Assembly (NCBI RefSeq): GCF_018860665.1
Contig: NZ_JAHKPK010000028.1
Coordinates: 162,320-206,873 of the forward strand
Direction: 5' to 3'
DNA: 44,554 bases
From: Pacificibacter marinus
GTDB taxonomy: Bacteria > Pseudomonadota > Alphaproteobacteria > Rhodobacterales > Rhodobacteraceae
Positions 9,671-30,807 of this stretch are shown here, in pieces (position 1 is the first letter of the stretch; each line of letters starts with the position of its first letter). The notes beneath the pieces were generated by a model. The model made no database searches and was not told the DNA's origin. It was given only the letters and a program-made list of their open reading frames with translations. The translations under genes and the position numbers were made by a program.

Positions 9671-10642
9671 CTAAGTTTTTTCCAACTCATGAGAGGCACG
9701 GATTTTCGACATGATGTAATCGCCTGCTGACACAGAATCGTATTTTGCAGGCACATCGTCGGACACACAGCTTGGCAAAGCTGATACGTTTGTATCACCT
9801 GCAGGCCCCGTAAAGGCGACCATCGACAGACGCCGCGTAGACCCCGTCAAGTCCCGCCGAGGGTTGGACACGCGGTGCAAGGTGGAGCGCCAGCGATCGT
9901 TCGTCCAACGCGACAACAGATCGCCAACATTGATGACAAAAGTATCTGGAATGACCTTGGCCTCATGCCATTCGCCATCAAGCCCCATGACCTCAAGCCC
10001 GCCAGGCGCCGCATCTTGGCGCAAAATGGTGATCGCACCATAGTCATGGTGTTCGCCATAGCGCAGCTGACCGGGCAGCGGATCAACGTCTTGGTCAGGA
10101 TAATTCACAAACCGCAAGGTCAATGATGGATCGGCATACATCGGCGCAAAGTAATCTTCAGGCAAATCAAGCGCCAAAGCCGACATCCGCATCAAAGCGT
10201 CGTTCAACTTCAGAATGGCCGTTGTGTACTCTGTCACCAGCCCCGCGAATTCCTTGGGCGTGTCGGGGTAATAATTGGCCTTATGCCCCTCTTCGCCCTC
10301 ATGATGTGGCGCGCCAAACACCAATGCCTCACACAAATCTGGCGGCGTTTCCCCTTTCAGGGTTTTGGCAACGCTTTCCATTCCCATCGGTAAATAGCCA
10401 CGGCTTTTGGCGGCCTCAGGCGGGGAATAGGCCATTTTCGCATCGAACGGCGTTTCGAAAAACGCGGTTGCAGCCGCGTAAAGCCCACCTGTTAGATCCT
10501 CTGGCACGCCATGCCCCTTAATGACAGCAAAGCCGACGCTTTCAAAAGCCTCTGCAAAGGCGCGCGCAACCTTTGCTTTGCCTTCGGGCGTCCCTTCAAG
10601 AAAAGGCGCTATATCGACGATAGGAAGTGTGAACTCGGCCAT
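9671..10642 (-). CDS. isopenicillin N synthase-like 2-oxoglutarate/Fe(II) oxygenase
   Basis: About 323 residues of the isopenicillin N synthase/2OG-Fe(II) dioxygenase family. The N-terminal DIOX_N region (LPIVDIAPFLEG, VGFAVIKGHGVPEDL) is followed by the jelly-roll domain with the metal-binding His198-x-Asp200 in GEHHDYGAITIL, His256 in LHRVSNP and the co-substrate-binding RLS (Arg271). It should oxidise a small molecule in the cytoplasm; a beta-lactam role is very unlikely here because it closes an operon containing a Rieske oxygenase and an importer. The ATG at 10642 is chosen because GGAG lies six bases upstream; longer starts are possible. Its place as last gene, 53 bases after the SnoaL-like gene, suggests a late oxidation step. 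Confidence 0.88.
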   Translation of the reverse strand: MAEFTLPIVDIAPFLEGTPEGKAKVARAFAEAFESVGFAVIKGHGVPEDLTGGLYAAATAFFETPFDAKMAYSPPEAAKSRGYLPMGMESVAKTLKGETPPDLCEALVFGAPHHEGEEGHKANYYPDTPKEFAGLVTEYTTAILKLNDALMRMSALALDLPEDYFAPMYADPSLTLRFVNYPDQDVDPLPGQLRYGEHHDYGAITILRQDAAPGGLEVMGLDGEWHEAKVIPDTFVINVGDLLSRWTNDRWRSTLHRVSNPRRDLTGSTRRLSMVAFTGPAGDTNVSALPSCVSDDVPAKYDSVSAGDYIMSKIRASHELEKT

Positions 10643-10695
10643 ATCGGTCTCCATTCTAAAGAAAAATTGTCTAGGTGTCGTAACCCTTATGAGCG

Positions 10696-11112
10696 TTAGC
10701 CAATGGTGAGCACGCCCAATTGGTCGTAAACGCTCATGCCGTCCCACATGGATGTGCATTCCACGATAAGGTCGTTTTCGATGCGCAGAATATCCATACC
10801 CGCCATAGTGATACGCTTATTGGTTGCGGCAACATCGCCATAAGGTCCGAAGTGATAACCAGACGTTTGCCAATGCAACACCACTTTGTCATCTTCTGCG
10901 ATCAGCGCCAGAATTTCGGTTTTAACATCATTGAACGCGCCCCAATAACGGGCCACATCGTCGTGAATCGCATCGATCGCACTGCTGTCAAAATCGGTGA
11001 TCTCAACCTTGGCCTCAGGGCTCCAGTAACGATCGATAGAGGTCTTATCGCCTTTTTCCCAAAGCTCAGTATGATAAGCGCGCACAAGGGCTTTGTTGCT
11101 GTCAGTTGTCAT
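10696..11112 (-). CDS. SnoaL-like / NTF2-fold protein
   Basis: 138 residues with a SnoaL-like (ester cyclase, NTF2-fold) pattern: an N-terminal helix NKALVRAYHTELWEKGDKTS followed by YWSPEAKVEIT, VVLHWQTSGYHFGPYG and the final strand LIVECTSMWDGMSVYDQLG. Members of this fold act as cyclases, isomerases, hydratases or small accessory subunits. Eleven bases separate it from the Rieske alpha-subunit gene, and it is in the same operon, so it probably handles an unstable ring-oxidation product. The exact reaction is not readable. No signal peptide. Confidence 0.8.
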   Translation of the reverse strand: MTTDSNKALVRAYHTELWEKGDKTSIDRYWSPEAKVEITDFDSSAIDAIHDDVARYWGAFNDVKTEILALIAEDDKVVLHWQTSGYHFGPYGDVAATNKRITMAGMDILRIENDLIVECTSMWDGMSVYDQLGVLTIG

Positions 11113-11123
11113 ATTCGTCGTCC

Positions 11124-12575
11124 TTATTTTACGTCTTCTGCAACTGCCGCAGCAGCCGATTCCGCTTTGAGTTTCTGTGCTTTCATGAATTTACTGTCTT
11201 CGATCCGCGCGCGGCGGATCGTTGTCGGAATGGGCTTTGCCATGATGCGTTTCCATTCCTGCATATAATGACGAATAGGCGCTTCTGACGCGAGATCCCC
11301 TGTGGCCAAACCATACTCATCGACCACATCGCCTGCATCATCGCCGCGACTGACATCAACCCATTCTTCTTCGATGGTTTGCAGGCCTTCTTGCACCCGC
11401 TCGAACATTTCGAAATCGTCGGGAATACCGAAAGACATGAAATCTTCATCCACACGCATACGCATCAGATTCACTTCCTCAGGCGTATCATCCGCCATCA
11501 CGAGATAGTAATTCATCAAGGTTTCACCGGCAGAAATCGGTTCAGGCACAACGATCTGGTTGCCCACAAAAATCAAGTTCGGGAAGATGTTTAAATTGAC
11601 CATATTACCGGTCATCAGATCCCATGTTTCACGCGGAATATCCCCGCCACGCTCTTTCAAAGAGGCCTCAAGATCCTCGCGCGTTGGCAGTGGTCGCATG
11701 GTGGACCATGGACCATCAGGAATGCCGGGGCGCTGATCAACAACACAATGCCCGTGACCAAGAGTATAGCCCACCATCGGCGACACGGCTGGATTGCGCG
11801 ACAAGATCGTATCGGTTTCGGCCTCTTTACCCAGCAGGTTATAGGACCGGTGCGCGAACGTGGCATGAATACCGTCGGCTGCATTGTCCCAAGCCATTTT
11901 CCAGTTGGCTTTATAGCTCTGTTTGATTGGTGCTTTAAGCACACGGATGCTGCCACTTGGGTGGCGGTCGATATGTTCATCCAGCCATAGTTTTGCTGGC
12001 CCAAGCCATTCATCAAGCGGCATAGGTTCGGCCGCCAAGGTGCCAAAGACAAACCCGCGATGCGAGACAACTTTGATCTGCCCTAAATCAAAAGGCCGCT
12101 CATATAGTTTGCTGTAACTATCCGCCACAGGCAGGCTTTGCAGATGGCCATCAAGGTCGAATGCCCAGCCATGATAGGGACAGGTAAAGCGCTTGGCGCA
12201 GCCTTCTTCTTCGCCCACCAATGTGGTGCCACGGTGACTGCAACGATTCAGCAAGCCACGGATTTCGCCTTTGCGCGTGCGGACCAAAATGATCTGGCGC
12301 TTGCCCAATCGTTTGCGCACGAAATCACCCGGCTCGGGCACTTCGGATTCATGGCCGATAAAGCACCACGTCGCGCCAAAAATACGATCCATTTCGATGT
12401 TGAACAGATCGGGATCTGTGTATACGCGGCGATGCACCACATCTTTACGGATAAGGTGCTCGACCTCGTCAGTTAAATCAGGGCCACGTGCGACCACTGC
12501 GTCAGGGCGCAAGCTGTCGGAAATATCGCGTTCAAGATTGGTTTCAGGGTCATTTTTATTCATATTCTCACCCAT
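11124..12575 (-). CDS. Rieske aromatic ring-hydroxylating oxygenase, alpha subunit
   Basis: 483 residues with an N-terminal Rieske [2Fe-2S] domain and a C-terminal catalytic mononuclear-iron domain. The cluster ligands are Cys112-x-His114 (RCSHRG) and Cys132-x2-His135 (TCPYHGW). The catalytic iron histidines are in DGIHATFAHR (His237, His242), with Asp234 next to them as the usual electron-transfer bridge. Such enzymes insert oxygen into an aromatic or heterocyclic ring using electrons from a ferredoxin and a reductase. The beta subunit is immediately upstream in the operon; a separate [2Fe-2S] ferredoxin is encoded on the other arm (23122-23436), but no reductase is visible. ATG at 12575 with GGGAG nine bases upstream; an internal ATG four codons later is also possible. 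Confidence 0.95.
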   Translation of the reverse strand: MGENMNKNDPETNLERDISDSLRPDAVVARGPDLTDEVEHLIRKDVVHRRVYTDPDLFNIEMDRIFGATWCFIGHESEVPEPGDFVRKRLGKRQIILVRTRKGEIRGLLNRCSHRGTTLVGEEEGCAKRFTCPYHGWAFDLDGHLQSLPVADSYSKLYERPFDLGQIKVVSHRGFVFGTLAAEPMPLDEWLGPAKLWLDEHIDRHPSGSIRVLKAPIKQSYKANWKMAWDNAADGIHATFAHRSYNLLGKEAETDTILSRNPAVSPMVGYTLGHGHCVVDQRPGIPDGPWSTMRPLPTREDLEASLKERGGDIPRETWDLMTGNMVNLNIFPNLIFVGNQIVVPEPISAGETLMNYYLVMADDTPEEVNLMRMRVDEDFMSFGIPDDFEMFERVQEGLQTIEEEWVDVSRGDDAGDVVDEYGLATGDLASEAPIRHYMQEWKRIMAKPIPTTIRRARIEDSKFMKAQKLKAESAAAAVAEDVK

Positions 12576-12599
12576 AGTGTGTCTCCCGTTTCTCAGTCA

Positions 12600-13172
12600 T
12601 CAAAGGATCCAGCCCAGATGGGGCATTCCTGCGGAAATGGCGGGGCAAAGCATGATTTTGCGCACAATCTGCCACCCATCATCAGTACGGCGCAGACGGT
12701 GAATTTGCCGTCCTGCCAAAACAGTCACTTTGCCGGTACGTTCGTGCGTGATGCTGATCGCGCTGGTGGCGATCACATCTGTATCGCTGTCAGGCAAGGG
12801 CCATGCCTCGACCCCGCCAACCATGCGCACGATTTGAGCATAGGGCACCAGCGCCCAAGCCGATGTGTCATGCATCCGCCACACCCGCTCGCGCAGACGG
12901 CGATGGTCATCCATGATAAGACCTTGATCACGGGCAGGATGGTGGCCTTGGTGCAACGGCACCCAAAACGCCGCATCCTCGGCCCATAGATCATACCAAG
13001 TATCAAATTGGCGGCGATCCAGCAGGCGCGCCTCGCCAATCAAAGTCGCCGTGACCTCAGCCGCCAATGCGCCATCAAACACGACAGGCGCCGTGTCAAG
13101 AAAAGCCACATCCGCGACAAGACTCTCGTAAAGGGCAAGCGTCTTGGAAAGGCCGAAAGGTTGGTCAGTCAT
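12600..13172 (-). CDS. Rieske ring-hydroxylating oxygenase, beta (small) subunit
   Basis: 190 residues with the beta-subunit NTF2-like fold: EARLLDRRQFDTWYDLWAED near residue 47, the MDDHRRLRERVWRM segment and the C-terminal GWQIVRKIMLCP strand. The beta subunit stabilises the alpha3beta3 hexamer and normally carries no metal. Its ATG overlaps the stop codon of the fused ABC permease (TAATG), linking uptake and ring oxidation in one transcript. Its presence argues against the single-subunit Rieske oxygenase types. Confidence 0.92.
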   Translation of the reverse strand: MTDQPFGLSKTLALYESLVADVAFLDTAPVVFDGALAAEVTATLIGEARLLDRRQFDTWYDLWAEDAAFWVPLHQGHHPARDQGLIMDDHRRLRERVWRMHDTSAWALVPYAQIVRMVGGVEAWPLPDSDTDVIATSAISITHERTGKVTVLAGRQIHRLRRTDDGWQIVRKIMLCPAISAGMPHLGWIL

Positions 13173-14755
13173 TATATCACCTGTTCAGGAGCAAAGTGGG
13201 AAAGAACGCGCCGTTCAAGCATTGCGACCAGCGCGTAACCTGCAACGGAAACGAGTGTAAGAATGGTCACGCAGCTCCACAACATATTGTAATTGCTTGT
13301 CGAATTGGTCAGGGCCATAAGATTGCCAATGCCCGTTCCTGTGGCGAGCCATTCCGCAACAGTCGCCGCCAAAACCGCCATAGGCACAGCCATGCGTGCG
13401 GCCGCGAACAAAGACGGCAACATCGCAGGCACCCGCGCCAAAAACAGCTGCGTCAAAGGTGGCGCACGGAAACTGTCAAAGTAGTCAATCACCTGGCCAG
13501 GTGTCTGACGCAACCCATGCAGACAGGACACAAGCGTGGGGAAAAAGATCATGATCGCCACGATCCCCAGCATCCCCAACTGCCCGCGCCCCAAAGCCAG
13601 CACCAACAATGGCGCAGTCGCCACAATCGGAATGGATCGCAAAGCAATCGCCACAGGGGACGCGATTTTCTCTACCGCCGGCAACATGCAGAAAATTGCG
13701 GCCAAAACGGCACCAAGGCCAAGACCTGCAAAATATCCCAAAACGGTGGTGCCCATCGTTTCACGCAAAGCTGCGAACAATTCGCTGCGATGTGCAGCAG
13801 CCTGTGAACCCGCGACCAGATAGGCCCAAACATCACCGGGCCGTTTGGCAAAAAAGCGCGATAGATCAAGACCATCCATGGAAATCTTCCACAACAGCAA
13901 GATTACAACGCAAGACAAGGTCGGCGCGGCGACAGCCATGAACAGTTTTTTCCACAGCACCTTTGGCGCTTTGGACGCGGGCGAGACCAAAAGCGATGGC
14001 GGCGCACCAATTGACAACAGCTGCCCCGCCCAACCGACCACAGCATATCCGATGATCGCCACCGCAGAGGCAATCGTGGCCAAAGCCCAAGTGCCATCCA
14101 CATCAAGACTGCGCATGGCTTGGATGCTCAAAACACCAATACCGCGATCTGCACCGGTAAATTCACCGACAATTGCGCCCAAAAACGCCGCAGGTGCCGC
14201 AATTTTTAAACTGGCGATCAGATAGGGAAGACTGGCACGCGCGCGTACCACGGTCATCGCGGTCAGACGACCACGACCATAACTTGCAATCAAATCCAAC
14301 CAACTCGGCGGCACCGCACGCAGCCCCACCACCAGTGGCACAAATGTGGTGTAATACACTGACAAAGCCGCCAATGTGATCTGAGGCCCCCATCCGGGGC
14401 CATAAATCACACGCAAAATCGGTCCTGTCGCAACAAGTGGCAAACAGAATACGACCAAAGCAATCGCTTGCGCCAAGCGTTCGATGGGGGGAAGGGTCAC
14501 GACCAGAACGGCCAAAACAATCGCCGCAAGATTGCCAAGAATAAACCCGAGCAAGGCTTCGGATACAGTTGCGCTCAAAGCGCGACTATAGAGTGGCAGG
14601 TCTTCGATGATACGCATCACAATCGCCGTCGGCGGCGAAAGAATATAGAGTTGGCCAAAAGCAAAGCGCGCCAAGAGTTCCCAAGCGATCAACAGACCGG
14701 CAAATCCTGCATAGGTCCGCATTTGCTCGGTCAACAAAACCTGTTGCCGTATCAT
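13172..14755 (-). CDS. ABC importer permease, two fused SsuC/TauC-type halves
   Basis: 527 residues made of two BPD_transp_1 permease domains in tandem, about 1-250 and 270-527. Each half carries its own EAA-like loop region (SYGRGRLTAMTVVRARASLPYLIASLKIA in the first, SFRAPPLTQLFLARVPAMLPSLFAAARMA in the second). Each also has the conserved GIG end motif (ADRGIGVLSI and ATGTGIGNLM). Nitrate/sulfonate/pyrimidine-type importers normally use a homodimer of single-domain permeases, so a fused pseudo-dimer is uncommon and allows the halves to diverge. Start and stop overlap the ATPase gene (ATGA) and the beta-subunit gene (TAATG). About 12 transmembrane segments are expected. Confidence 0.9.
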   Translation of the reverse strand: MIRQQVLLTEQMRTYAGFAGLLIAWELLARFAFGQLYILSPPTAIVMRIIEDLPLYSRALSATVSEALLGFILGNLAAIVLAVLVVTLPPIERLAQAIALVVFCLPLVATGPILRVIYGPGWGPQITLAALSVYYTTFVPLVVGLRAVPPSWLDLIASYGRGRLTAMTVVRARASLPYLIASLKIAAPAAFLGAIVGEFTGADRGIGVLSIQAMRSLDVDGTWALATIASAVAIIGYAVVGWAGQLLSIGAPPSLLVSPASKAPKVLWKKLFMAVAAPTLSCVVILLLWKISMDGLDLSRFFAKRPGDVWAYLVAGSQAAAHRSELFAALRETMGTTVLGYFAGLGLGAVLAAIFCMLPAVEKIASPVAIALRSIPIVATAPLLVLALGRGQLGMLGIVAIMIFFPTLVSCLHGLRQTPGQVIDYFDSFRAPPLTQLFLARVPAMLPSLFAAARMAVPMAVLAATVAEWLATGTGIGNLMALTNSTSNYNMLWSCVTILTLVSVAGYALVAMLERRVLSHFAPEQVI

Positions 14756-15594
14756 GCCCGCGCCTCCAGACGTGAGGCGTCATCTTCGGGTTCATCAATG
14801 ATCCCCAACGCAGTATTGATCTGCGTCACAAGAGCAAGAAACTTTGGACTTGTCAGATGCGAGGCCCGTCGCGGGCGCTCTATATCAATCGCGATATCCG
14901 CACTCACACGTGCGGGCCGGTGGCTCATCACGATCACGCGGTCCGACAGTAAAACCGCCTCTGTCACGGAATGGGTCACAAGCAGAGTCGTCGTGCCCTG
15001 CCCTTCCCAAACGCGTGGTAATTCAAGATTCAATCGGCGACGGGTCATTTCATCAACAGCGCCAAAGGGTTCATCCAGCAACAAAAGGCGAGCATCCGTC
15101 GCCAAACAGCGCGCGATGGCACAGCGTTGACGCATCCCGCCCGACAATTCGGCGGGGCGTTTGTTTTCAAATCCGTCAAGCCCGACGAGCGATAAAAGAT
15201 GCTGCACTTTTTCAGGGTCTTTGGGCAGCCCCGCCAAACGACGGGCCAGCGCGACGTTGGACGCCGCCGTGCGCCACGGCAACAATGACGGATCTTGAAA
15301 CGCAACAGACAAACGCCCCTTGCGTGCAACAACATGCGGCTCTTCGCCACCGATACGGATGGCGCCAGATGTGGGGGTTTCCAACCCTGCAACCATCCGC
15401 AACAATGTTGATTTTCCACAGCCCGAAGGCCCGACAAGCGCAGTGGTCGTCCCCGGTTCAAGTGTAAGTTCTACGTCACTTACGGCCTGAACAGACGAGT
15501 CACCATATCCAAAGACTTTATTCACAGCCCATGCTTCAACTTTGGGCGGCCCTATCTCAGATACGGGCGTTTGATCAATGCGCTTGTCGGTCAT
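14752..15594 (-). CDS. ABC importer ATP-binding protein (SsuB/TauB/ThiZ type)
   Basis: About 280 residues with all ABC ATPase motifs: Walker A GPSGCGKS (55-62), Q-loop AFQDPSLLPW (Gln100), signature LSGGMRQR (150-157), Walker B LLLLDEP (170-176) and the switch histidine in VTHSVTEA. The QDPSLLPW loop is typical of the nitrate/sulfonate/taurine/pyrimidine importer group. It energises the fused permease encoded immediately downstream, whose ATG overlaps its TGA. The ATG at 15594 is four bases after the binding-protein stop; the longer in-frame start would overlap that gene by about 90 bases and is rejected. Confidence 0.94.
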   Translation of the reverse strand: MTDKRIDQTPVSEIGPPKVEAWAVNKVFGYGDSSVQAVSDVELTLEPGTTTALVGPSGCGKSTLLRMVAGLETPTSGAIRIGGEEPHVVARKGRLSVAFQDPSLLPWRTAASNVALARRLAGLPKDPEKVQHLLSLVGLDGFENKRPAELSGGMRQRCAIARCLATDARLLLLDEPFGAVDEMTRRRLNLELPRVWEGQGTTTLLVTHSVTEAVLLSDRVIVMSHRPARVSADIAIDIERPRRASHLTSPKFLALVTQINTALGIIDEPEDDASRLEARA

Positions 15595-15598
15595 CAGC

Positions 15599-16594
15599 TT
15601 ACTCGTAGATTTCTTCGAGAATGGAACGATCCCAAAGATCGGCTGAGACCTCGCGCCCGAGCAGCCCCAAAGTGGCGATATTGTCGGCAACCGTTTCGTC
15701 GGTGAACCAACCGAAACCGAATTCTTCGGTCAACGGTGACACCATCAAATCGACCTGCTTTGCGGCCTGAACTTTTTGCGTTTCCAGATCGAGCCCCAGA
15801 TCAGGGAATTTCGCCACGACAAGATCGGCTGCTTTATCTGTATCCGCAAAATAGGCATTCCAACCGGCGATCTCGCCCGCCATAAGCGCCACGATTTCTT
15901 CACGTTGATTTTCCAACGCATCTTCGGTGACAATGTATGTTTGGCTGTGCACCGCATAACCGTGATCCGCCAAAAGCATTGTAACATTGTCAACGCCAGC
16001 CATTGTCATCGCAATCGGCAAATCTGTCAGCCAGCACAGCAAGCAATCGACTTGTCCATTCACCAACGGCGCAGGGTCGTATTGCGTTGGCACGATCTCA
16101 ATTTCATTAATATCGACATCGTTCAGCGCACATAGTGCCGCCAAAATTGGCGTGTTCGCAACAGCCATACCAATTTTCTTACCAACCAGATCAGCAGGCG
16201 AATTGACCGGGTTTCCAGGCAGGGACGCGATGGCGAAAGGATTTTTTTGCATGGCAACGGCAATGATTTTAAAGGTCGCGCCTTCTGCCACAGCAGCCGA
16301 AGCGTAATCTGCCGCAGTGATCCCTAACAAAGATGTACCCGCCATAACAGAAGGTTCGACCGGCGCATTCGGTCCGCCTGACAACAGGCTGACATCCAAC
16401 CCTTTTTCCGCCCAAACGCCGTTTTCTTCTGCAAGATAAGAACCACCGAACTGAACAGACGGCAGCCATGACAATTGGAAATTAACGGCTGAGCTTGTTT
16501 GTGCCGATGCAAAACGCGCAGGCGCAACCAATGACGCGGCACCACCTGCCAAAAGGCCCAAGGTCGCACGGCGTGTAATAGGTGGGAATTTCAT
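15599..16594 (-). CDS. NMT1/THI5-like ABC importer substrate-binding protein with TAT signal
   Basis: About 331 residues with a twin-arginine leader (ITRRATLGLLAGG, Arg8-Arg9, cleavage likely after FASA) and an NMT1/THI5-like binding domain. Visible family stretches are WLPSVQFGGSYLAEENGVWAEKGLDV, MAGTSLLGITAADYASA, LVGKKIGMAVANTPILAALC and VDCLLCWLTDLPIAM. Relatives bind thiamine pyrimidines, taurine, sulfonates, nitrate or riboflavin, so a small polar ring compound fits the family and the operon. First gene of the seven-gene minus-strand operon; GGAAAG lies seven bases before the ATG at 16594. A 101-residue upstream extension of the open frame is rejected because it lacks a ribosome site and would displace the TAT leader. 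Confidence 0.92.
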   Translation of the reverse strand: MKFPPITRRATLGLLAGGAASLVAPARFASAQTSSAVNFQLSWLPSVQFGGSYLAEENGVWAEKGLDVSLLSGGPNAPVEPSVMAGTSLLGITAADYASAAVAEGATFKIIAVAMQKNPFAIASLPGNPVNSPADLVGKKIGMAVANTPILAALCALNDVDINEIEIVPTQYDPAPLVNGQVDCLLCWLTDLPIAMTMAGVDNVTMLLADHGYAVHSQTYIVTEDALENQREEIVALMAGEIAGWNAYFADTDKAADLVVAKFPDLGLDLETQKVQAAKQVDLMVSPLTEEFGFGWFTDETVADNIATLGLLGREVSADLWDRSILEEIYE

Positions 16595-17176
16595 TTGAAC
16601 TTTCCTTCCTGTTGGCCGGCGAGCAGTTCGGATCTGTCGTGCCGGCGAGTTTATGTCACAATCGATATCGACGGAGCGGCACAGTTGGCGTTTCAACCTC
16701 AGAACCTCTGCCCACCCACCGCCATCTTTGCGATCGGTGTAAAATTGATATGAGGCGAGAAAACAAAACGACAGCACCATTTTACGGACAGCGTGAACGC
16801 AAAAAGAGAGCACTGCACAATATTTAAACAACAGGGTCGCCGACGCACATTTACGCGACGCCCTCAGTCTGGCCGCACGGTTGCGCCCCATCGCCAATCA
16901 GGAAAAAAATCTTAAAGACGCGGCAAAACTTGCTAAATCGGTGAATTTTGTGCAAAAATTCGCAAAATCGCACATTAGTTAAGCGGTATATGAGGCAGTT
17001 CGATCCGTGGCGTTTCGGACATATGGTTCAATACATACTCAATATATGCCGTCTTCTATAGTAACCCCAATCACTATGCACAAAGGACGAGCAATTTAGC
17101 GTTGCTATTTATCTACCAGTAAACTTCTGCCAGACTACCGATAAATACATGTGCCCTAACGCCAGCAAAGGTTCCA
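16595..17176. promoter_or_regulatory. divergent control region between the importer/oxygenase operon and the LysR genes
   Basis: A 582-base gene-free stretch that becomes AT-rich in its second half. I see one clear symmetrical element (16945-16968) and a nine-base direct repeat GCCGGCGAG near 16614 and 16639. No gene, RNA motif or transposase fragment was recognised. By position it should carry the promoters for both arms of the catabolic island. Confidence 0.5.
16945..16968. promoter_or_regulatory. interrupted palindrome, candidate LysR-type binding site
   Basis: ATTTTGTG, eight bases, then CGCAAAAT: seven of eight positions of the arms pair, in an AT-rich context about 210 bases before the first LysR gene and about 350 bases before the importer operon. 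LysR regulators typically bind such interrupted dyads (T-N11-A type) between divergent genes. Binding is inferred only. Confidence 0.4.
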
Positions 17177-18121
17177 ATGCTTCATTCACGATTATTGCGA
17201 TACCTCGACATGGTCGCGCGGACGGGCTCTATTCGGCGGGCAGCCGAGCGCCTCAACATTTCTGCATCCTCGATCAATCGGCAAATTCTTGCACTCGAAG
17301 AAGAAATGGGCACGCCGATTTTCGAACGGCTCCCCAAGACGCTACGACTGACAGCCGTAGGAGAGGTCTTGATCGAACATATTCGCGAAACGCTAAAAGA
17401 ACACAGCAAAACACAGGACCATATTGAACGATTGCGCGGCAATCATGGTGGCGTCGCGCATGTTTTTGCCACAGAAGGGCTGGCAAATGGAGTTTTGTTG
17501 CCGATCTTAGCAGAGATACGAGACAATCACCCAAGCATATCAATCGACCTCACAATCGCGACAGCCGACGTTGTGTCGCAAAAGATGGTCTCAGGCGAAG
17601 CTGATATCGCCATCGCGCAATACCTTCCTGATCACCCGACGATCAATGTGACCGCACGTTTTACCAGCCCTGTAGGGGCGGTTTTTGCCAGTGACCACCC
17701 CATCGCACATCACGCATCAAAACGTCTGGCGGATTACCTAGATCACGGGATCGTTTTTCCCGATGCTTCGCAACGCCTCCATCGCCCGATTGCTGACCAG
17801 TTGGCGCGGGCGGGCCTTGACTTTAAGCCGCATCATTCTTCGAACTCTGTCAGCAATCTCATTGAAATGGCGCGCCATCACGGGGCGATCGCCATTCTTC
17901 CCCTTATAGATGTGATAGAAGACCTGCGGCGGCGCACATTGGTGTTCGCGCCTTTGTCGGCCATTATGCTTCATGCTGAAATAAGCCTCGCAAGGCATGA
18001 ACGCGGAACCACCAATTCAGCCATTAACATTCTTGAAATAGAGATCCGCAACGCACTGCGTGATATTGAATCTCAAGGCAGCGACACAGGATCAAAGCGG
18101 AGTATTGGCCTTGACATCTAA
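17177..18121 (+). CDS. LysR-family transcriptional regulator 1
   Basis: 314 residues with an N-terminal winged HTH (LLRYLDMVARTGSIRRAAERL, then NISASSINRQILALEEEMGT) and a LysR-type effector-binding domain. The HTH sequence, with SSINRQILALEEE rather than the more common PAVSRQIRRLE, is slightly divergent. AAAGG sits six bases before the ATG. Divergent from the importer/oxygenase operon, so it is the natural candidate for its activator or repressor. Its 3' end overlaps the second LysR gene. Confidence 0.9.
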   Translation: MLHSRLLRYLDMVARTGSIRRAAERLNISASSINRQILALEEEMGTPIFERLPKTLRLTAVGEVLIEHIRETLKEHSKTQDHIERLRGNHGGVAHVFATEGLANGVLLPILAEIRDNHPSISIDLTIATADVVSQKMVSGEADIAIAQYLPDHPTINVTARFTSPVGAVFASDHPIAHHASKRLADYLDHGIVFPDASQRLHRPIADQLARAGLDFKPHHSSNSVSNLIEMARHHGAIAILPLIDVIEDLRRRTLVFAPLSAIMLHAEISLARHERGTTNSAINILEIEIRNALRDIESQGSDTGSKRSIGLDI

Positions 18122-19037
18122 ACTAGATCTTAGGCACCTGCGTGTGCTGCAAGTCTTGCTTCATGAAAGCAATGTCTCACGCGCGGCTGTCAAACTGGGC
18201 CTAAGCCAGCCCGCCATCAGCGCAACGCTGCGCCAGTTGCGCGATACGTTCAACGACCCGTTGTTGGTGCGGTCAGGTGCCGCCATGGTCCGTACAGAGC
18301 GCGCGAATGATATATCGATGGCCGTCGACCGCATTCTAACCGATATCGATCTTTTGCTATCTCCCCCTGGTGAATTCGACCCTGCCACATCAGATCGCAC
18401 AATTCGCATCGTCGCTTACTTCGGCCTTGGGTCTCTTTTAATTCCATCGTTGATTCAGGCCATAAACACGGCGTCCCCCAAATCACGCATCGAAATCATC
18501 CAGCCAGGCACGCCAGAGCAAATCAAACAGCAGCTTCATGACGGAGATATTGATCTGGTTATTTCAAGCCGTCAGGATCCTTACCCTAATCTACGGTTTG
18601 CCCCATTGGTCGAGTCAGACATTGCCTGCGTCGTTGCCAATTCTCATGAAAAGGCGGGGCAAAACCATCTGACATTGGATGAATATCTGACGCTTGACCA
18701 CATTTCACCAAGTGCCGCGGCCGTCGTTGCGGGAACACCGATTGACGGGCAGCTGCTTCAACTTGGCAAATCTAGAAACGTGGTCGCAACCGTGCCCGAA
18801 TTTGCCCTTGCCCGTCAGATTGTCCCACAATCCAATCTGGTTTTAACCACAGCTCGCCCCTTTGCCGAAGAAATGGCAGCAACGCTATCTGTCACTGTTT
18901 TAGAGGCCCCACCAGAGCTTGGTTTGATGAGTGCATGGTTATTCTGGCACGAAAAATCCCATCACTCTCCCTTTGGCCATTGGTTGCGCCAAACCGTGCG
19001 GCAAGTCGCGCACAAGACACTTCGCATGCCATCATAA
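18111..19037 (+). CDS. LysR-family transcriptional regulator 2
   Basis: About 308 residues. The HTH (LRHLRVLQVLLHESNVSRAA, LSQPAISATLRQLRDTFNDPLLVRSG) is of the NodD/PcpR-like LysR subgroup with a longer linker, unlike regulator 1, so the two are not a recent duplication. No ATG exists near the start. The TTG at 18111 is chosen because GGAG (18099-18102) lies eight bases upstream and the HTH then begins at the usual distance; a GTG at 18060 would add 17 residues. The start overlaps the previous gene's end by 11 bases, implying coupled translation. It may govern the plus-strand hydrolase genes that follow. Confidence 0.85.
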   Translation: MTSKLDLRHLRVLQVLLHESNVSRAAVKLGLSQPAISATLRQLRDTFNDPLLVRSGAAMVRTERANDISMAVDRILTDIDLLLSPPGEFDPATSDRTIRIVAYFGLGSLLIPSLIQAINTASPKSRIEIIQPGTPEQIKQQLHDGDIDLVISSRQDPYPNLRFAPLVESDIACVVANSHEKAGQNHLTLDEYLTLDHISPSAAAVVAGTPIDGQLLQLGKSRNVVATVPEFALARQIVPQSNLVLTTARPFAEEMAATLSVTVLEAPPELGLMSAWLFWHEKSHHSPFGHWLRQTVRQVAHKTLRMPS

Positions 19038-19128
19038 GCTCAAGACCATACCCGCTATAACGTCGGCTGTCTTTCGCAATCTCAGGTGCGCGTGTTTACT
19101 GGAACCGAACCGCAACCGGAGATCACGC

Positions 19129-19524
19129 ATGCATAAAGCGCTAACGCCAACAGACCTACCCGCCCCTTTCGCGCGATACTCTCACGGGATAGAAGTGACC
19201 AATCCCGCGCGCTGGGTCTGGTGTTCAGGCCAACTTGGCATGGATGCGACAGGGCATATCCCCGAAGATACAAAAGCGCAGGCCGCACTCTGTTTTGAAA
19301 ACGCTGCAAAAATCCTAGCCGCAGCAGACATGTCACTCAACGACGTGGTGCGTGTGAACGCCTATGTCACAGATCGCGCCCATATGGCCCCCTACATGGA
19401 AGCCCGCGATGCATTCTTTACCGGACAACCACCAGCGTCCACATTGATGATCGTCGGTGGATTTACCCGCCCTGAATTCACAGTCGAAGTCGAAATCGTC
19501 GCAGCGCAACAGGTGCAAAAATGA
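19129..19524 (+). CDS. RidA/YjgF-like protein
   Basis: About 131 residues of the RidA (Rid/YjgF/UK114) family: WVWCSGQLGMDATG near residue 30, FENAAKILAAADMSLNDVVRVNAYVTD in the middle and a final RPEFTVEVEIVAA strand with the conserved arginine. RidA proteins hydrolyse reactive enamines/imines; related family members (RutC, aminoacrylate-type) act in nitrogen-heterocycle pathways. The ATG at 19129 has GGAG seven bases upstream; a longer open frame running back into the LysR gene is rejected. Its stop overlaps the creatininase-family start (ATGA), so it belongs to the plus-strand catabolic operon. Confidence 0.9.
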   Translation: MHKALTPTDLPAPFARYSHGIEVTNPARWVWCSGQLGMDATGHIPEDTKAQAALCFENAAKILAAADMSLNDVVRVNAYVTDRAHMAPYMEARDAFFTGQPPASTLMIVGGFTRPEFTVEVEIVAAQQVQK

Positions 19525-20336
19525 CAGCACGGCGCATTTGGTGGGAAGAATTTTCCACCCGAGATTTCGACACCATAGATCCAAAGAACACCATCGCGAT
19601 GTTGCCCATTGCCGCAACGGAACAACACGGACCGCATTTGCCACTTTGCACCGATACAGCGCTGACCAAAGGCATGATCGATACGGTCGCAAAAGACCTG
19701 CCCGCCCATGTTGATCTACGCGTCCTTCCCATTCAAAGGGTTGGAAAATCTGACGAACATCTCTTTGCACGTGGCACGTTAAGTTTTGATGCAAAGGCCC
19801 TGATCGACACATGGACAGCGCTTGGCCACGCGGTTGCACGTACAGGTATTCGCAAGTTGATCATCATGAATTCACATGGCGGGAATGAAGACATCATGGG
19901 GATTATCGCGCGTGCCTTGCGTGTTCAACATGGTCTCCTTGTCGCCAAAACCAGTTGGTTACGCTTTGGGCATCCAGAAAATCTTTATGACAATCACGAA
20001 CTTAAACACGGTATTCACGGTGGCGATATCGAGACATCTTTAATGCTGCACTTTCGCCCCGATCTGGTTGATATGAAACAAGCAGAAAACTTTGTGTCCC
20101 AAAATGCAAAAATCGCCCAATCGAACACCTATTTAAACGCCACAGGCCCCCATGGGTTTGGCTGGATCGCCTCAGATTTACATCCCTCGGGCGCCATCGG
20201 AAACGCTGCAGCTGCCAGTGCGGACAAAGGTGCCGCAAGTGCAAATTGGGCTGCCAAAGGGTTTACGGCACTTTTGCAAGATATGATCCAAACCGATCCT
20301 GATGACATCTTTTCACCGCAAGAGGCCTGCCTGTGA
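19521..20336 (+). CDS. creatininase-family amidohydrolase
   Basis: 271 residues of the creatininase (creatinine amidohydrolase) superfamily, which opens cyclic amides or hydrolyses formamides using a two-metal site. The signature metal residues are present: Glu34 and His36 in AATEQHGPHLPL, Asp45 in CTDTAL, the NSHGGN motif (His119) and HGGDIETS with Glu171. The family includes creatininase, FAPy deformylases and other ring-opening hydrolases, so the substrate cannot be named. Overlapped on both sides by neighbours (ATGA and GTGA). In this operon it probably opens the oxidised ring or removes an acyl group from nitrogen. Confidence 0.9.
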   Translation: MTARRIWWEEFSTRDFDTIDPKNTIAMLPIAATEQHGPHLPLCTDTALTKGMIDTVAKDLPAHVDLRVLPIQRVGKSDEHLFARGTLSFDAKALIDTWTALGHAVARTGIRKLIIMNSHGGNEDIMGIIARALRVQHGLLVAKTSWLRFGHPENLYDNHELKHGIHGGDIETSLMLHFRPDLVDMKQAENFVSQNAKIAQSNTYLNATGPHGFGWIASDLHPSGAIGNAAAASADKGAASANWAAKGFTALLQDMIQTDPDDIFSPQEACL

Positions 20337-21634
20337 CCCATTCCAATGACCTCATGACGTTCACCAATGCGCGTGTGCATGAAACACATCTTTCACAGCC
20401 TTTGGGTGTGGCGGATGATGGCGGGTTTCACCGCGTCAATGTCACCCTGCAGGGCAATAAAATCAGTGATGTAACAGCAGCAGACCACACCATTGAGGGC
20501 ACAAAAACAGATCTGGCGGGGCGTATTCTCACCCCCAGCTTTGTCGATTGTCACACCCATTTGGACAAGGGTCACATTTGGTCCCGTCAACCAAACCCTG
20601 ATGGTAGCTTCGGCGGAGCCCTATCGGCTGTTGCGCAAGACACTGCGGCAAACTGGTCCGCAGATGATCTGAAATTGCGCATGGATTTTGCCCTACGCTG
20701 TGCCTATGCGCATGGCACAAGCGCCCTGCGTACGCATATCGACTCGCAAGCCCCCCAAGCGGCAATCTCATGGCCCGTTTTTGAAGACTTGCGTGACACT
20801 TGGGCTGAGCGCATCACGTTACAAGCGGTCTGTTTGGTCGGGATCGAAGCAGTTCGTGACACAATGTTTTTCAACACGCTTGCCAAACGCGTTCAGGTCG
20901 CTGGCGGTGTGCTTGGCGCCGTCACCTATATGGTGCCAGATATCAAGGACTTGATTGATCAGGTGTTTGTGACAGCTAAAGACCTAGGACTTGATCTTGA
21001 TTTTCATGCTGACGAAACAGGCGATCCCGATGCCGTGTCTTTGCATCTGATTGCACAGGCTGCCTTGCGCCACGAATTCTCGGGTCGTATCAACGTCGGC
21101 CATTGCTGCTCGCTCGCGCGCCAACCTGATGACACAGCTTTGGGCACTCTTGATCTTGTTGCAAAGGCAGGCCTATCGATCACGACCTTGCCGATGTGCA
21201 ACCTTTACTTGCAAGACCGCCGCCATGACGGAACCACCCCGCGCTGGCGTGGCGTGACTTTGGTTCACGAGATGACATCACGCGGCATTAATGTTGCCAT
21301 CGCCTCAGACAACACCCGCGATCCGTTTTACGCATACGGCGATCTCGACATGATGGAAGTGTACCGCATGGCAACGCGGATTTTACATCTGGACCATCCT
21401 GTCGGTCAGTGGCCAGCAACTATGACGACAGCCCCTGCCAATCTGATGGGAATTGCCCCTCCGACCATCGCAATAGGTGCCCCCGCAGATTTGATCCAAT
21501 TTCGTGCGCGCAGTTGGACCGAACTTTTGTCGCGCCCGCAAAGCGACCGGATCGTCCTGCGCGGCGGCAAACAGATAGACACCACCCTTCCCGATTACAG
21601 CGACCTCGACGCACTCATGGAGTCCTCAAAATGA
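20333..21634 (+). CDS. cytosine-deaminase-like metal-dependent amidohydrolase
   Basis: 433 residues of the CodA-like amidohydrolase family. The metal and catalytic residues line up with E. coli CodA in order and spacing: His74/His76 (HTHLDKGH), His225 and Glu228 (DFHADETG), His257 (GHCCS) and Asp326 in SDNTRDPFYAYGDLDM. Such enzymes deaminate or hydrolyse ring amidines, including cytosine, isoguanine and N-carbamoyl or triazine compounds. GTG start at 20333 overlapping the previous TGA, with AGAGG eight bases upstream; the next candidate start is an ATG seven codons later. The combination with the creatininase-type enzyme and RidA supports a nitrogen-ring catabolic route. Confidence 0.9.
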   Translation: MTHSNDLMTFTNARVHETHLSQPLGVADDGGFHRVNVTLQGNKISDVTAADHTIEGTKTDLAGRILTPSFVDCHTHLDKGHIWSRQPNPDGSFGGALSAVAQDTAANWSADDLKLRMDFALRCAYAHGTSALRTHIDSQAPQAAISWPVFEDLRDTWAERITLQAVCLVGIEAVRDTMFFNTLAKRVQVAGGVLGAVTYMVPDIKDLIDQVFVTAKDLGLDLDFHADETGDPDAVSLHLIAQAALRHEFSGRINVGHCCSLARQPDDTALGTLDLVAKAGLSITTLPMCNLYLQDRRHDGTTPRWRGVTLVHEMTSRGINVAIASDNTRDPFYAYGDLDMMEVYRMATRILHLDHPVGQWPATMTTAPANLMGIAPPTIAIGAPADLIQFRARSWTELLSRPQSDRIVLRGGKQIDTTLPDYSDLDALMESSK

Positions 21635-23031
21635 ACATTGAATCCCTAAAGGCCGATCTCGCCGGACTAAACATCATCGACAGCCCAAATTTAGTACGTC
21701 TGAAAAGCCGCGATGCGTTCTATTTCTCTCCGATTTTGAAACCGGAACTGGACCATGTGATCGCCGACCTCGTCGTCATACCTGACACGGAAGAGGACAT
21801 CCTGAAAACCATCCGCGCCTGTTTTGCTCATGATGTGCCCATCACCGTGCGCGGTGGTGGCACTGGTAATTATGGTCAAGCGATGCCCTTGTCTGGCGGC
21901 GTTGTTCTGGACCTGACCGCCTTAACAGAGATCCGCGAAATTGCGCCCGGCCGCGTTGTCGCCCAAGCTGGCGCCATTGTGTCCCAGATCGATAAAGCGA
22001 CCCGCGCCCATTCCATGCAAGAATTGCGCATGCATCCCTCGACCGCGCATACAGCCACGATTGGCGGATTTGTGGCAGGCGGGTCCTCAGGTATCGGATC
22101 GATCCAATGGGGCGGTTTGCGCGATCCGGGCAATATCATCCGCCTGCGCATCATCACGATGGAAGCAGAGCCCCGCATCATCAATTTACACGGCGATGAT
22201 TTGCAAAAAGTAGCCCATGCTTACGGGACCAATGGCATCATCACAGAAGTCGAGATGCCGCTGACCACCGCCTATGATTGGGTCGATATGATCGTGGAAT
22301 TCGACGATTTTATTGAAGCAACAAAATACGCCAATGATTTGGGCAGCCAAGATGGAATTTTGACGAAACTGATTTCTGTCATCGCCGCACCTATCCCCTT
22401 TCAAACGTTCAAACGCCATCAAAAATTCATGACTGAGGGCAAACATGTCGTTCTGCTCATGGCGGCCCCACATGCGATGATGCCCCTTCTGGCCTTCACC
22501 GCGCATTATCCCGCACAGATCGCTTTTCGCAGTGACGAGGTTGAAGACCTTAAAGGCATACCAGCGGTCTTTGAGCTTAGCTGGAACCACACCACGTTGC
22601 GCGCGATGAAAGTCGCACCGGGCATGACCTATATCCAGTCGCTTTACCCCTACCCCAATCAAGTAGATCTGGTCGCCAAGACCTTTGAAATGTTTGGTGA
22701 TGAAGTCCCTCACCATCTTGAATTCTTGCGTTTTGACGGCAATGTCACCTGCTTTGGCCTGTCTATGGTGCGCTATTCCACCGATGCGCGCCTGAATGAA
22801 ATTATGCGCCAACATGATGAGGCGGGTGTGCCTGTGTTCAACCCGCACCGCTACACTTTGGAAGAAGGCGGGATGAAACAGACCGATGAATTGCAGCTCG
22901 CGTTCAAGAAAGAGACCGATCCAAAGGGGTTGTTGAACCCCGGAAAAATGGTCGCTTGGGATGATCCCGATTTCGATTACAGCGATGATAAAGTTTACCT
23001 CTATCCCGGCATCAAAAAAGCGACGAGCTGA
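21631..23031 (+). CDS. FAD-linked oxidase (GlcD / VAO-type)
   Basis: About 466 residues with a PCMH-type FAD-binding domain (PITVRGGGTGNYGQAMPL, then VVLDLTALTEI; GGFVAGGSSGIGSIQWG) and a C-terminal FAD-oxidase cap ending in the usual DPKGLLNPGKM. It resembles glycolate oxidase and D-lactate dehydrogenase-type flavoenzymes that oxidise alpha-hydroxy acids or alcohols. The ATG at 21631 overlaps the upstream stop (ATGA) with GGAG eight bases before; a longer frame from 21409 is a spurious extension. Likely oxidises an intermediate released after ring opening, passing electrons to a quinone, oxygen or the neighbouring ferredoxin. Confidence 0.88.
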   Translation: MNIESLKADLAGLNIIDSPNLVRLKSRDAFYFSPILKPELDHVIADLVVIPDTEEDILKTIRACFAHDVPITVRGGGTGNYGQAMPLSGGVVLDLTALTEIREIAPGRVVAQAGAIVSQIDKATRAHSMQELRMHPSTAHTATIGGFVAGGSSGIGSIQWGGLRDPGNIIRLRIITMEAEPRIINLHGDDLQKVAHAYGTNGIITEVEMPLTTAYDWVDMIVEFDDFIEATKYANDLGSQDGILTKLISVIAAPIPFQTFKRHQKFMTEGKHVVLLMAAPHAMMPLLAFTAHYPAQIAFRSDEVEDLKGIPAVFELSWNHTTLRAMKVAPGMTYIQSLYPYPNQVDLVAKTFEMFGDEVPHHLEFLRFDGNVTCFGLSMVRYSTDARLNEIMRQHDEAGVPVFNPHRYTLEEGGMKQTDELQLAFKKETDPKGLLNPGKMVAWDDPDFDYSDDKVYLYPGIKKATS

Positions 23032-23083
23032 CCCATCGAGACCATTGATGCACGCATCATGTTTGAGCACTCAACATTCCCCC

Positions 23084-23100
23084 AGTTTGCGACGCAAACT
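23084..23100. promoter_or_regulatory. perfect hairpin or operator before the ferredoxin gene
   Basis: AGTTTGC, three bases, GCAAACT: a perfect 7-base dyad 22 bases upstream of the ferredoxin ATG, in the 90-base gap after the FAD oxidase. There is no T run, so a factor-independent terminator is unlikely; a regulator site or an RNA processing hairpin that sets ferredoxin levels is more plausible. Confidence 0.4.
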
Positions 23101-23121
23101 TGACCAACAAGCAGGCATAAG

Positions 23122-23436
23122 ATGAAAGTTACATTCCAAATCCAAGACGATAGCAAAACAGTGACGGCTCTCCCCGGTCAATCGGTGATGGAAGTCGCTT
23201 TGGCCAATAACATCAGCGGCATTGCCGCCGAATGTGGCGGCGGCGCAATTTGCGGCACATGCCATGTCAAAATTTGCGAAAAATGGCAGGACGCTGTCGG
23301 ACCTGCTGAAGATTTTGAAGAAGACCTATTGGACTGTCTTCCCGATTTTAGCAGCGCCTCACGTCTCGCTTGTCAGGTTTTGCTCACGTTCGAATTGGAT
23401 GGCCTTGAAGTGAACGTCCCACAGGCTGAGCAATAA
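23122..23436 (+). CDS. [2Fe-2S] ferredoxin
   Basis: 104 residues, a plant/adrenodoxin-fold ferredoxin whose cluster ligands are Cys38, Cys44, Cys47 and Cys84 (ECGGGAICGTCHVKI and RLACQV). The C-x5-C-x2-C spacing is of the adrenodoxin/ISC-like type rather than Rieske-type. It is the probable electron donor to the Rieske oxygenase encoded on the other arm of the island, or an acceptor for the FAD oxidase just upstream. No ferredoxin reductase gene is seen nearby. Its stop lies six bases from the convergent membrane-protein gene. Confidence 0.94.
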   Translation: MKVTFQIQDDSKTVTALPGQSVMEVALANNISGIAAECGGGAICGTCHVKICEKWQDAVGPAEDFEEDLLDCLPDFSSASRLACQVLLTFELDGLEVNVPQAEQ

Positions 23437-24714: not shown

Positions 24715-25401
24715 ATGTTTGATGCAAGAATTCAGCCGCTGCAAAAGCGCTTGCTTGATCGGCCAGCAACTTGGTTTGTCACGCGGGGCATAGGAGCAGA
24801 TCAGATCACCATTGCCGGATTTGCCATCGGCCTTTTAGCTGTGCCGGCGATTGCCTTTGGCATCTATTGGGCGGGTTTGATTTTTCTTATCGTAAACCGT
24901 CTCGCGGATGGGCTTGACGGGGCAGTCGCGCGGATCTCTGGCCCAACAGATCGAGGCGCCTTCCTTGATATTGCATTGGACTTTGTATTTTACGCCGTGT
25001 TCCCGTTGGGGTTTGCCATTGCAACCCCTGCGAACGCTTTGCCTGCTGCCGTTTTGATTGCCGCCTTTGTTGGCACGGGATCGTCGTTTTTGGCATATGC
25101 TGCCATCGCGGCCAAGCGCGGTGACACAGCCGAGGCTTTCCCAACCAAAGGCATCTACTATCTTGGCGGCTTGACGGAAGGCTTCGAGACAATCGCTCTT
25201 TTTGTTCTGATGCTGCTTTGGCCTGCGCTGTTTCCTTTACTCGCCTATCTTTTTTCTGCGGCCTGTGTGCTCACCACCCTCTTGCGCTGGTCACATGGCT
25301 GGACCGCCTTCGCACCAATGGCCCTGAAGAAACAAAAGCCGCAGGATAGCAACGATACACGGCCACAGTCTCAATCAACTACAATACAGGACGTCTCATG
25401 A
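24715..25401 (+). CDS. ynjF: CDP-alcohol phosphatidyltransferase family protein (YnjF-like)
   Basis: 228 residues, a membrane enzyme of the CDP-alcohol phosphatidyltransferase family that joins a CDP-alcohol to an acceptor alcohol with release of CMP. The catalytic motif is visible as ADGLDGAVAR (Asp65, Asp68, Gly69, Ala72, Arg73) followed by Gly81-x3-Asp85-x3-Asp89. GPTDRGAFLDIALDFVFYAVFPLGF resembles E. coli YnjF closely. Six transmembrane helices are expected. Its stop overlaps the ATG of the binding-protein gene (ATGA), as in the E. coli ynj cluster order F/B/C/D rearranged. The ribosome site before ATG (GGAAAA) is weak. Confidence 0.85.
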   Translation: MFDARIQPLQKRLLDRPATWFVTRGIGADQITIAGFAIGLLAVPAIAFGIYWAGLIFLIVNRLADGLDGAVARISGPTDRGAFLDIALDFVFYAVFPLGFAIATPANALPAAVLIAAFVGTGSSFLAYAAIAAKRGDTAEAFPTKGIYYLGGLTEGFETIALFVLMLLWPALFPLLAYLFSAACVLTTLLRWSHGWTAFAPMALKKQKPQDSNDTRPQSQSTTIQDVS

Positions 25402-30505: not shown

Positions 30506-30807
30506 GGGAACCTCTAACTCCAAAATTTAGTCTTTAAATATCTATAAACTTGGGCGCATATTGGGCGCTTAGTGAGCCACGTCAAGGCAGTGTCAAGGAT
30601 GTGATTGGAAACAATGGGTTTCCCCCGAGCTTGCGAGCGGGGCTGTTGTTTCGGGCACACATGCGGCGCGGGTTTTGGGCGTAAAAATCTTTAAAACATG
30701 TAAGGTGGCGGGGGAGAAGCTTTAAGCTTTTGCAAGATCGCGCCGCAAAGTCTGTTAAGTTTTACAAAGACGGACGGGGCAACGCACGCTAGGGTAACGC
30801 AAAAAAA
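30506..30807. other. 302-base intergenic stretch upstream of the BspA-like gene
   Basis: Should contain the minus-strand promoter of the BspA-like gene. I see no convincing promoter boxes. A GC-rich stem with a bulge (CCCCGAGC...GAGCGGGG) lies near 30637-30656. Otherwise nothing recognised. Confidence 0.35.

Follow-up and report, generated by a model that had tools for sequence, protein, structure and literature searches.

The stretch of DNA analysed here (hereafter the window, 44,554 nucleotides, G000:C8:162320-206873) comes from the genome (3.89 Mb in 65 contigs) of a Roseobacter-type bacterium and contains, at positions 9671-23436, an island of 14 genes in two divergent arms, seven on the minus and seven on the plus strand. 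Gene families were assigned with Pfam and NCBIfam models and gene starts were trimmed; the families and positions agreed with those given in a first-pass annotation, made from the letters alone, which had omitted two tandem LysR genes.

The minus arm reads, from the centre outward, as an NMT1-type binding protein (SBP; 15599..16594, NMT1 1e-34) with a twin-arginine-like leader recognised by eye, an ATP-binding cassette (ABC) ATPase (14752..15594, ABC_tran 5e-36), a fused double ABC permease (13172..14755, two BPD_transp_1 stretches), the beta (12600..13172, Ring_hydroxyl_B 5e-23) and alpha (RIA; 11124..12563, Rieske 8e-19, Ring_hydroxyl_A 4e-12) subunits of a Rieske oxygenase, a SnoaL-like protein (10696..11112, SnoaL 3e-23) and a 2-oxoglutarate (2OG)/Fe(II) oxygenase of the isopenicillin-N-synthase type (OGO; 9671..10642, DIOX_N 8e-20, 2OG-FeII_Oxy 9e-18). 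The plus arm opens with the LysR regulators 1 (17177..18121) and 2 (18060..19037), both assigned by Pfam, followed by a RidA-family protein (19129..19524, Ribonuc_L-PSP 5e-24), a creatininase-family hydrolase (19521..20336, PF02633 5e-64), a CodA-like amidohydrolase (PRK07583; 20333..21634, NF005759 618 bits), proposed here as a ring deaminase, a flavin adenine dinucleotide (FAD) oxidase/oxygenase (21631..23031, FAD_binding_4 4e-26) and a 2Fe-2S ferredoxin (23122..23436, Fer2 6e-11). Genes overlap within each arm, as had been claimed: four overlaps of 4 bases were found (permease/ATPase, 14752-14755; RidA/creatininase, 19521-19524; creatininase/amidohydrolase, 20333-20336; amidohydrolase/FAD oxidase, 21631-21634), the tandem LysR genes overlap by 62 bp and the remaining within-arm gaps measure 0-92 bases. 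No ferredoxin reductase was present among the 14 genes according to the Pfam family calls.

Conservation of the island as a unit

The island is a unit conserved in three genomes. In P. marinus D2R04 (L157), all 14 genes were found in the same order, with protein identities of 83-99%; Pacificibacter marinus is indeed the nearest named carrier, its Rieske alpha subunit being 98% identical. Harenicola maris KMM 3653 (L036/L037), belonging to the same family as the source genome, carries 13 of the 14 genes at 73-96% identity. The LysR pair is included in both genomes (97% and 97% in P. marinus, 76% and 79% in H. maris), and the gene missing in H. maris is the ferredoxin: its best chance match there had E=0.064, and downstream of the FAD enzyme this genome has different reading frames. 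Such a synteny in other genomes, suggested as a check by the first-pass annotation, is beyond chance.

Outside the island no similarity was found. Using blastn, no match of the window flanks at E<=1e-5 was retrieved around the island in P. marinus (3.5 kb, 2.3 kb) or in H. maris (8.2 kb, 15.5 kb), and the flanking proteins tested by tblastn gave no match around the island in either genome. Towards its right end, the alignment of the window with P. marinus drops in DNA identity; this was not taken as an island edge, only a short gappy tail lying beyond it, and the blastn result on the flanks serves as the evidence. When compared with P. marinus, the window genes showed dN (nonsynonymous divergence) of 0.003-0.106 and dS (synonymous divergence) of 0.18-1.9, with a dN/dS of about 0.15 or less in 14 of 14 genes, thus indicating that all of them are under purifying selection.

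The block formed by the RidA, creatininase-family and amidohydrolase genes (19011-21498) had a dS of 0.76-1.9 against P. marinus, with 0.18-0.65 in the surrounding genes, and looks as if it had been replaced by recombination in either the window or the P. marinus genome.

The Rieske module and its relatives

The Rieske alpha subunit contains both the Rieske and the catalytic domain and is accompanied by a beta partner, as in two-subunit ring-hydroxylating oxygenases; CxH...CxxH and DxxHxxxxH, which we take to be the ligand motifs, are visible in its alignment. In the family sample (295 genomes), a match at E<=1e-90 was found in two, one of them the source genome itself. The class sample gave matches at E<=1e-80 in 13 of 385 genomes; the window's and that of G539 (66%; the metagenome-assembled genome (MAG) listed below as L068) were the only close ones, the other eleven being 40-42% identical. 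The Rieske alpha alignment was also used to scan the genome_contigs collection, in which each of 84,980 species is represented by one genome; among the best 80 of 111 loci, six showed at least 56% identity: P. marinus, H. maris, a Bauldia MAG (L067), the alphaproteobacterial MAGs L068 and L069, and Pseudonocardia CNS-139 (L080).

In L069 and Pseudonocardia the left arm is composed of SBP, ATPase, permease, Rieske beta, Rieske alpha, SnoaL and a PhyH-type oxygenase, while L068 has neither SBP nor ATPase, and its permease is shortened at the start. SnoaL adjoins Rieske alpha in all three and was not found in Bauldia L067; a 2OG oxygenase adjoins the left arm in L068 and L069 (both 48% identical to OGO, with 65% for the Bauldia copy). 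In L068, L069 and Pseudonocardia no right-arm genes lie beside the left arm. The Bauldia MAG, on the other hand, holds in one cluster the FAD oxidase, a LysR1 homologue (47%), OGO, SBP-ATPase-permease, the Rieske genes, a second binding protein and an enolase-superfamily gene. The history of the island is modular, and its two arms are, from this distribution, two modules.

A PhyH-family oxygenase adjoins Rieske alpha or SnoaL in L067, L068, L069 and L080 (two PhyH-like matches in Pseudonocardia), and does not in the window's island.

In a quick tree, the island-type Rieske alpha formed a distinct clade (SH-like approximate likelihood ratio test, SH-aLRT, 100), having as sister a group from Acidimicrobiia (93), and was joined with aniline-dioxygenase-type enzymes at a support of 89; the "aniline dioxygenase" label of these neighbouring clusters is presumed by us from their gene set. 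These clusters are the closest type with an annotated context, with an alpha subunit about 41% identical in a neighbouring clade, but they differ from the island in carrying glutamine synthetase-like and amidotransferase genes. Of the 11 short class loci (L039-L049), nine have a glutamine synthetase-like gene adjoining the Rieske genes, as do all four annotated plasmid loci of the neighbouring group, whereas neither partner matched in the window piece L001, in L037, L065-L069 or L080, nor was either present among the 14 island genes. The Acidimicrobiia loci (L071, L073) are also without a glutamine synthetase-like gene, and their context, read by eye, offered no clue to a substrate. The best matches of Rieske alpha in PDB were 7yls/8h2t, presumably the indole-acetate dioxygenase IadDE, and 9o71, the likeness consisting in the sequence match alone. 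The island is not a benzoate route, as the first-pass annotation had already stated (benA model, 194 bits against a cut-off of 781).

The right arm and a widespread core operon

Judging from gene content and protein similarity, the genes of the right arm form a divergent version of a conserved operon comprising an importer, the amidohydrolase, the FAD oxidase, the creatininase-family hydrolase, RidA and a redox partner, here called the core operon, which occurs in alpha-, beta- and gammaproteobacteria. In the island, four core genes are clustered at 19129-23031. All 21 comparison loci contained the amidohydrolase and the FAD oxidase, 19 the creatininase-family gene and 18 RidA. Seven Rhodobacterales loci read at length all had RidA, an NMT1 importer, the amidohydrolase and the FAD enzyme; six had the creatininase-family gene and two flavodoxin-fold oxidoreductases, and three a 2OG oxygenase (32-33% identical to OGO). 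The amidohydrolase was detected at E<=1e-100 in 70 of 295 family genomes, about a quarter, as well as on many Rhizobium plasmids. Taking the 30 best amidohydrolase loci of this sample, among them those of the window and H. maris, the FAD enzyme lay inside the short locus in 28. In the phylum sample the FAD enzyme was found at E<=1e-60 in 32 of 398 genomes, with the amidohydrolase adjacent in 24 of 29 loci.

Annotated plasmids carrying the core enzymes belong to Paroceanicella, Rhizobium, Agrobacterium, Klebsiella, Pantoea, Alloyangia, Roseateles, Palleronia, Comamonadaceae, Leisingera, Nitratireductor (whose annotation lists no RidA gene) and Ruegeria TM1040, where the set is accompanied by a TauD-type oxygenase; the Paroceanicella record also holds a 2OG oxygenase. 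The redox partner varies among a flavodoxin-fold oxidoreductase, a PDR/VanB reductase and a 2Fe-2S ferredoxin, and the regulators of the Alloyangia and Roseateles operons are RutR-like (PF08362). The island's right arm is without the usual core importer and NAD(P)H oxidoreductase, having instead another NMT1 importer and the ferredoxin. A correlation among the distance matrices of the four core proteins (r 0.61-0.93) was given no weight, since common descent alone would yield it.

The source genome itself encodes a second, ordinary core operon (L186, G000:C39:1484-9134) with its own importer, whose proteins are 40% (oxidoreductase), 41% (FAD enzyme), 33% (amidohydrolase) and 41% (creatininase-family) identical to those of the island, and which also has TetR-like and RidA-like genes, both recognised by eye. 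The island is thus a specialised additional copy and not the sole one of this genome. The right arm, presented in the first-pass annotation as an unrecognised assortment, turns out instead to belong, as a diverged representative, to a widespread operon; it offers a lead towards pterin deaminases (see below), and its FAD oxidase has a near full-length relative in PDB. No description of the core operon was found in the open-licence PMC literature, and the accessible part of a Rid-family survey (PMC4433059) makes no mention of creatininase, cytosine deaminase or amidohydrolase. The operon would represent a widespread, apparently unnamed catabolic pathway even if its substrate proves to be another nitrogen ring than the one suggested below.

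On two plasmids of Aminobacter and Shinella (L062, L063), the amidohydrolase family is found in a different catabolic setting, beside RidA, isochorismatase, 2-hydroxymuconate-tautomerase and octopine-dehydrogenase-type genes.

Several left-arm carriers also possess the core enzymes. An amidohydrolase at 55-84% identity was found in four of the five carriers searched. In P. marinus this is the island's own copy; the other three carriers, all MAGs, are independent cases, each with the gene on a contig other than that of the left arm and next to an importer like that of ordinary core operons. In L068 and L069 this core-type amidohydrolase is 55-57% identical, and in one of the two the 19 kb stretch that contains it also carries creatininase-family and FAD-oxidase genes. 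No close amidohydrolase was found in Pseudonocardia, the best reaching 34%.

These distributions bear on whether the arms belong together. The claim of the first-pass annotation that they do stands for the window, P. marinus and H. maris, but not for two alphaproteobacterial MAGs and Pseudonocardia, where they separate, an outcome it had itself named as contrary to its proposal; moreover, the right-arm core occurs with no neighbouring Rieske gene in many genomes and plasmid records. Two independent pathways might therefore lie side by side, the Rieske arm acting on an aromatic compound of its own and the right arm on a separate nitrogen heterocycle, with one LysR regulator for each. We regard this as rather unlikely. 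The left arm standing alone in L068, L069 and L080, together with the Pseudonocardia amidohydrolase, speaks for it, as does the fact that neither Rieske genes nor a window-like ferredoxin lay within ~4.3 kb at any of the 29 phylum FAD-oxidase loci. The ferredoxin, examined as proof that the arms belong together, was rejected as such: homologues (39-42%) occur in the core operons of Roseateles, Leisingera and Nitratireductor, which show no Rieske gene, and it is absent from H. maris. Against two pathways are the conservation of the unit in three genomes sharing no flank similarity, the lack in the right arm of the importer and NAD(P)H oxidoreductase of ordinary copies, the Bauldia cluster, which mixes genes of both arms, and the 2OG oxygenases of ordinary Rhodobacterales operons and of the Paroceanicella record. 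The island is best read as a mobile, specialised copy of an aminoheterocycle-degrading operon that would have acquired an oxygenase front end. The original proposal of one undescribed nitrogen-ring pathway is partly borne out: a catabolic-looking nitrogen-ring island was a fair interpretation and the unit is co-inherited, but it combines a Rieske module with a diverged version of a widespread heterocycle operon.

Substrate class and proposed route

The amidohydrolase scored well above the cut-off of the PRK07583 "cytosine deaminase" model NF005759 (618 bits against 403) and its alignment keeps the positions that we take to be the metal and catalytic His/Asp/Glu residues of CodA. At the sites of Gln156 and Asp314, assumed here to be the substrate contacts of E. 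coli CodA, it has Gly and Asn, and a cytosine deaminase function finds no support there. The FAD enzyme matched PDB entries 6v42/6v43 over residues 1-464 (E=5e-205), the EncM oxygenases following far behind (~1e-6); their title is presumably "flavin oxygenase involved in folate catabolism". Catalytic RidA proteins presumably carry their active-site Arg in a PAR motif. In the window's RidA this reads PAS; taking the 18 other aligned RidAs together with it, the variants are PAS, PVS and PSS, all lacking the Arg, so that the role of RidA here may not be ordinary imine hydrolysis. Overall, the four-enzyme set of the right arm probably dismantles an amino-substituted nitrogen ring, perhaps a pterin-like compound.

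Known routes for other nitrogen rings fit poorly. The rut uracil pathway has in common with the island a RidA-family protein, and a RutR-like regulator with two of the related operons, but the RutC model remained far below its cut-off (33 bits against 169) and no other rut-type gene is among the 14, in line with the first-pass annotation. Its exclusion of the creatinine pathway likewise held. A creatinine- or hydantoin-like 2-aminoimidazolone, opened by the creatininase-family enzyme and the amidohydrolase, is very improbable as a substrate: the two hydrolases do share an operon, but the former scored 88 bits against 235 for the creatininase equivalog TIGR04448, far under the cut-off, and neither a creatinase nor a sarcosine-oxidase gene is present among the island genes. 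Homarine catabolism was also considered, and no matching gene set was found in open-licence papers.

A lead towards pterins came from the presumed title of 6v42/6v43 and from the folate-pterin degradation of Variovorax sp. F1 (PMC9513972). As described in the accessible part of that paper, a Variovorax pterin deaminase (PDA) is a relative of A. radiobacter Arad3529, and conserved "endoribonuclease" genes lie downstream of the predicted deaminase genes of V. paradoxus; these can be taken as RidA-type, because the Pfam name of RidA proteins is endoribonuclease L-PSP. The likeness to the island, drawn from the description, would consist in a cytosine-deaminase-like metal amidohydrolase with a RidA-type gene nearby. 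In the Klebsiella and Pantoea core operons RidA directly follows the amidohydrolase; in the island the creatininase-family gene separates the two. In the same part of the paper, the route stops at the deaminated products, and cell extracts decomposed minimal deaminated pteroate (PMC9513972). The FAD enzyme and the ring-opening hydrolase of the island would fit as later steps, and the core operon is a direct candidate for those missing after pterin deamination. Compared with that pathway, as far as it is there described, the island has no carboxypeptidase G and adds the Rieske/SnoaL/2OG front end and another importer.

The importer gives a further hint. The best PDB match of SBP was 3ix1, a formylaminopyrimidine-binding protein (8e-12), and a pyrimidine-type ligand would fit both this match and the RutR-like regulators of two core operons. 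SBP is only 24-27% identical to the SBP type usual in core operons, and the permease groups with other Rieske-linked permeases (98/95). The same architecture could alternatively serve a thiamin-type aminopyrimidine (hydroxymethylpyrimidine, HMP, and relatives), which would agree with 3ix1, with the RutR-like regulators and with the amidohydrolase family, since CodA-like enzymes deaminate C4 of cytosine. This alternative is nonetheless quite improbable in our view, given the Gly and Asn aligned with the CodA contacts, and given that a Rieske and a 2OG oxygenase seem more than HMP requires.

The reading that we favour, tentatively and at somewhat under even confidence, is that of one two-module island, in which the importer and the Rieske front end would feed a ring-dismantling lower module acting on a pterin-like class of substrates. 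The NMT1 ABC importer would take up a substituted, amino-bearing N-heteroaromatic compound, which the Rieske alpha/beta oxygenase would hydroxylate or dealkylate, with electrons coming from a reductase whose gene lies elsewhere, by way of the ferredoxin or some other carrier. The SnoaL protein might then rearrange or dehydrate the Rieske product, and the 2OG oxygenase carry out a second oxidation. In the lower module, the amidohydrolase would strip the ring amino group, the FAD enzyme oxidise the deaminated product and the creatininase-family enzyme open the cyclic amide, while the atypical RidA may assist an imine/enamine step; the two LysR proteins at the divergence would control both arms. 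The most likely substrate would be a pterin or a similar fused pyrimidine of the 2-amino-4-oxo type, which may bear an aryl-amine side chain like that of pteroate, and we hold the pterin-like class, suggested by these homologies, with moderate confidence. Pteroate contains an aryl amine, and the neighbourhood of the Rieske enzyme to aniline-dioxygenase-type enzymes is weak evidence fitting such a side chain. A more specific version, in which the Rieske and 2OG oxygenases cleave or hydroxylate the side chain of a substituted pteridine (pteroate- or biopterin-like) by an undescribed route and the core operon, as a general pteridine-ring pathway in three proteobacterial classes, opens the ring completely, appears doubtful.

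Several observations weigh against a pterin-degrading island. The island amidohydrolase is 33% identical to the ordinary copy of its own genome and 30-33% to those of Klebsiella and Pantoea, so that its substrate may differ; the Rieske relatives are only ~41% identical; PF09084 is a broad family, hence 3ix1 is weak evidence; the folate-catabolism title of 6v42/6v43 is itself presumptive; and the ferredoxin, missing in H. maris, is dispensable there. Folate degradation would also require carboxypeptidase G, of which the island has no gene, nine M20-family matches being found elsewhere in the genome. Finally, SBP is 63-71% identical in the best aligned pieces (up to 75% in another comparison) to the SBPs of an envelope-type cassette of Rhodobacterales, the permease reaching 52-55%. 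This contrast suggests one ligand common to the island and the cassette, which a pterin would not explain, and the six cassette stretches read showed no sign of pterins.

It could then be supposed that the island degrades the ligand imported by the envelope cassette, the three-gene order of the importer being the same in both settings in addition to the SBP/permease contrast. This, too, we consider hardly probable: the permease tree splits the two settings with support, and the annotations of the six cassette stretches include no amidohydrolase. A simple exchange of the importer from the cassette was rejected on the permease tree, where the window falls with the Rieske-linked permeases, while the binding-protein tree gave no resolution on the importer's origin.

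The envelope cassette itself (L162-L167, Rhodobacterales plasmids, e.g., Dinoroseobacter shibae pDSHI05) contains a CDP-alcohol phosphatidyltransferase, a sulfatase-like protein, the importer and a glycosyltransferase in all six stretches, a flippase-like protein in four and an adjoining cytochrome b gene in five.

Returning to the favoured pterin-like class, almost every cell produces pterins and similar rings, yet, to our knowledge, the bacterial opening of the pterin ring is poorly known; the source genome, holding two versions of the operon, allows their comparison.

Two further features lie in the window to the right of the island. One is an ABC importer at 25398-28932, whose relatives in G083 (51%, 44% and 57%; L054:3505-7055) adjoin an ordinary amidohydrolase/FAD-oxidase locus, a likeness which may be more than coincidence. 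The other, at 29462-30523, is a gene whose product contains four stretches of DUF285 (441 bits), a family named from Mycoplasma and present here in an alphaproteobacterium.

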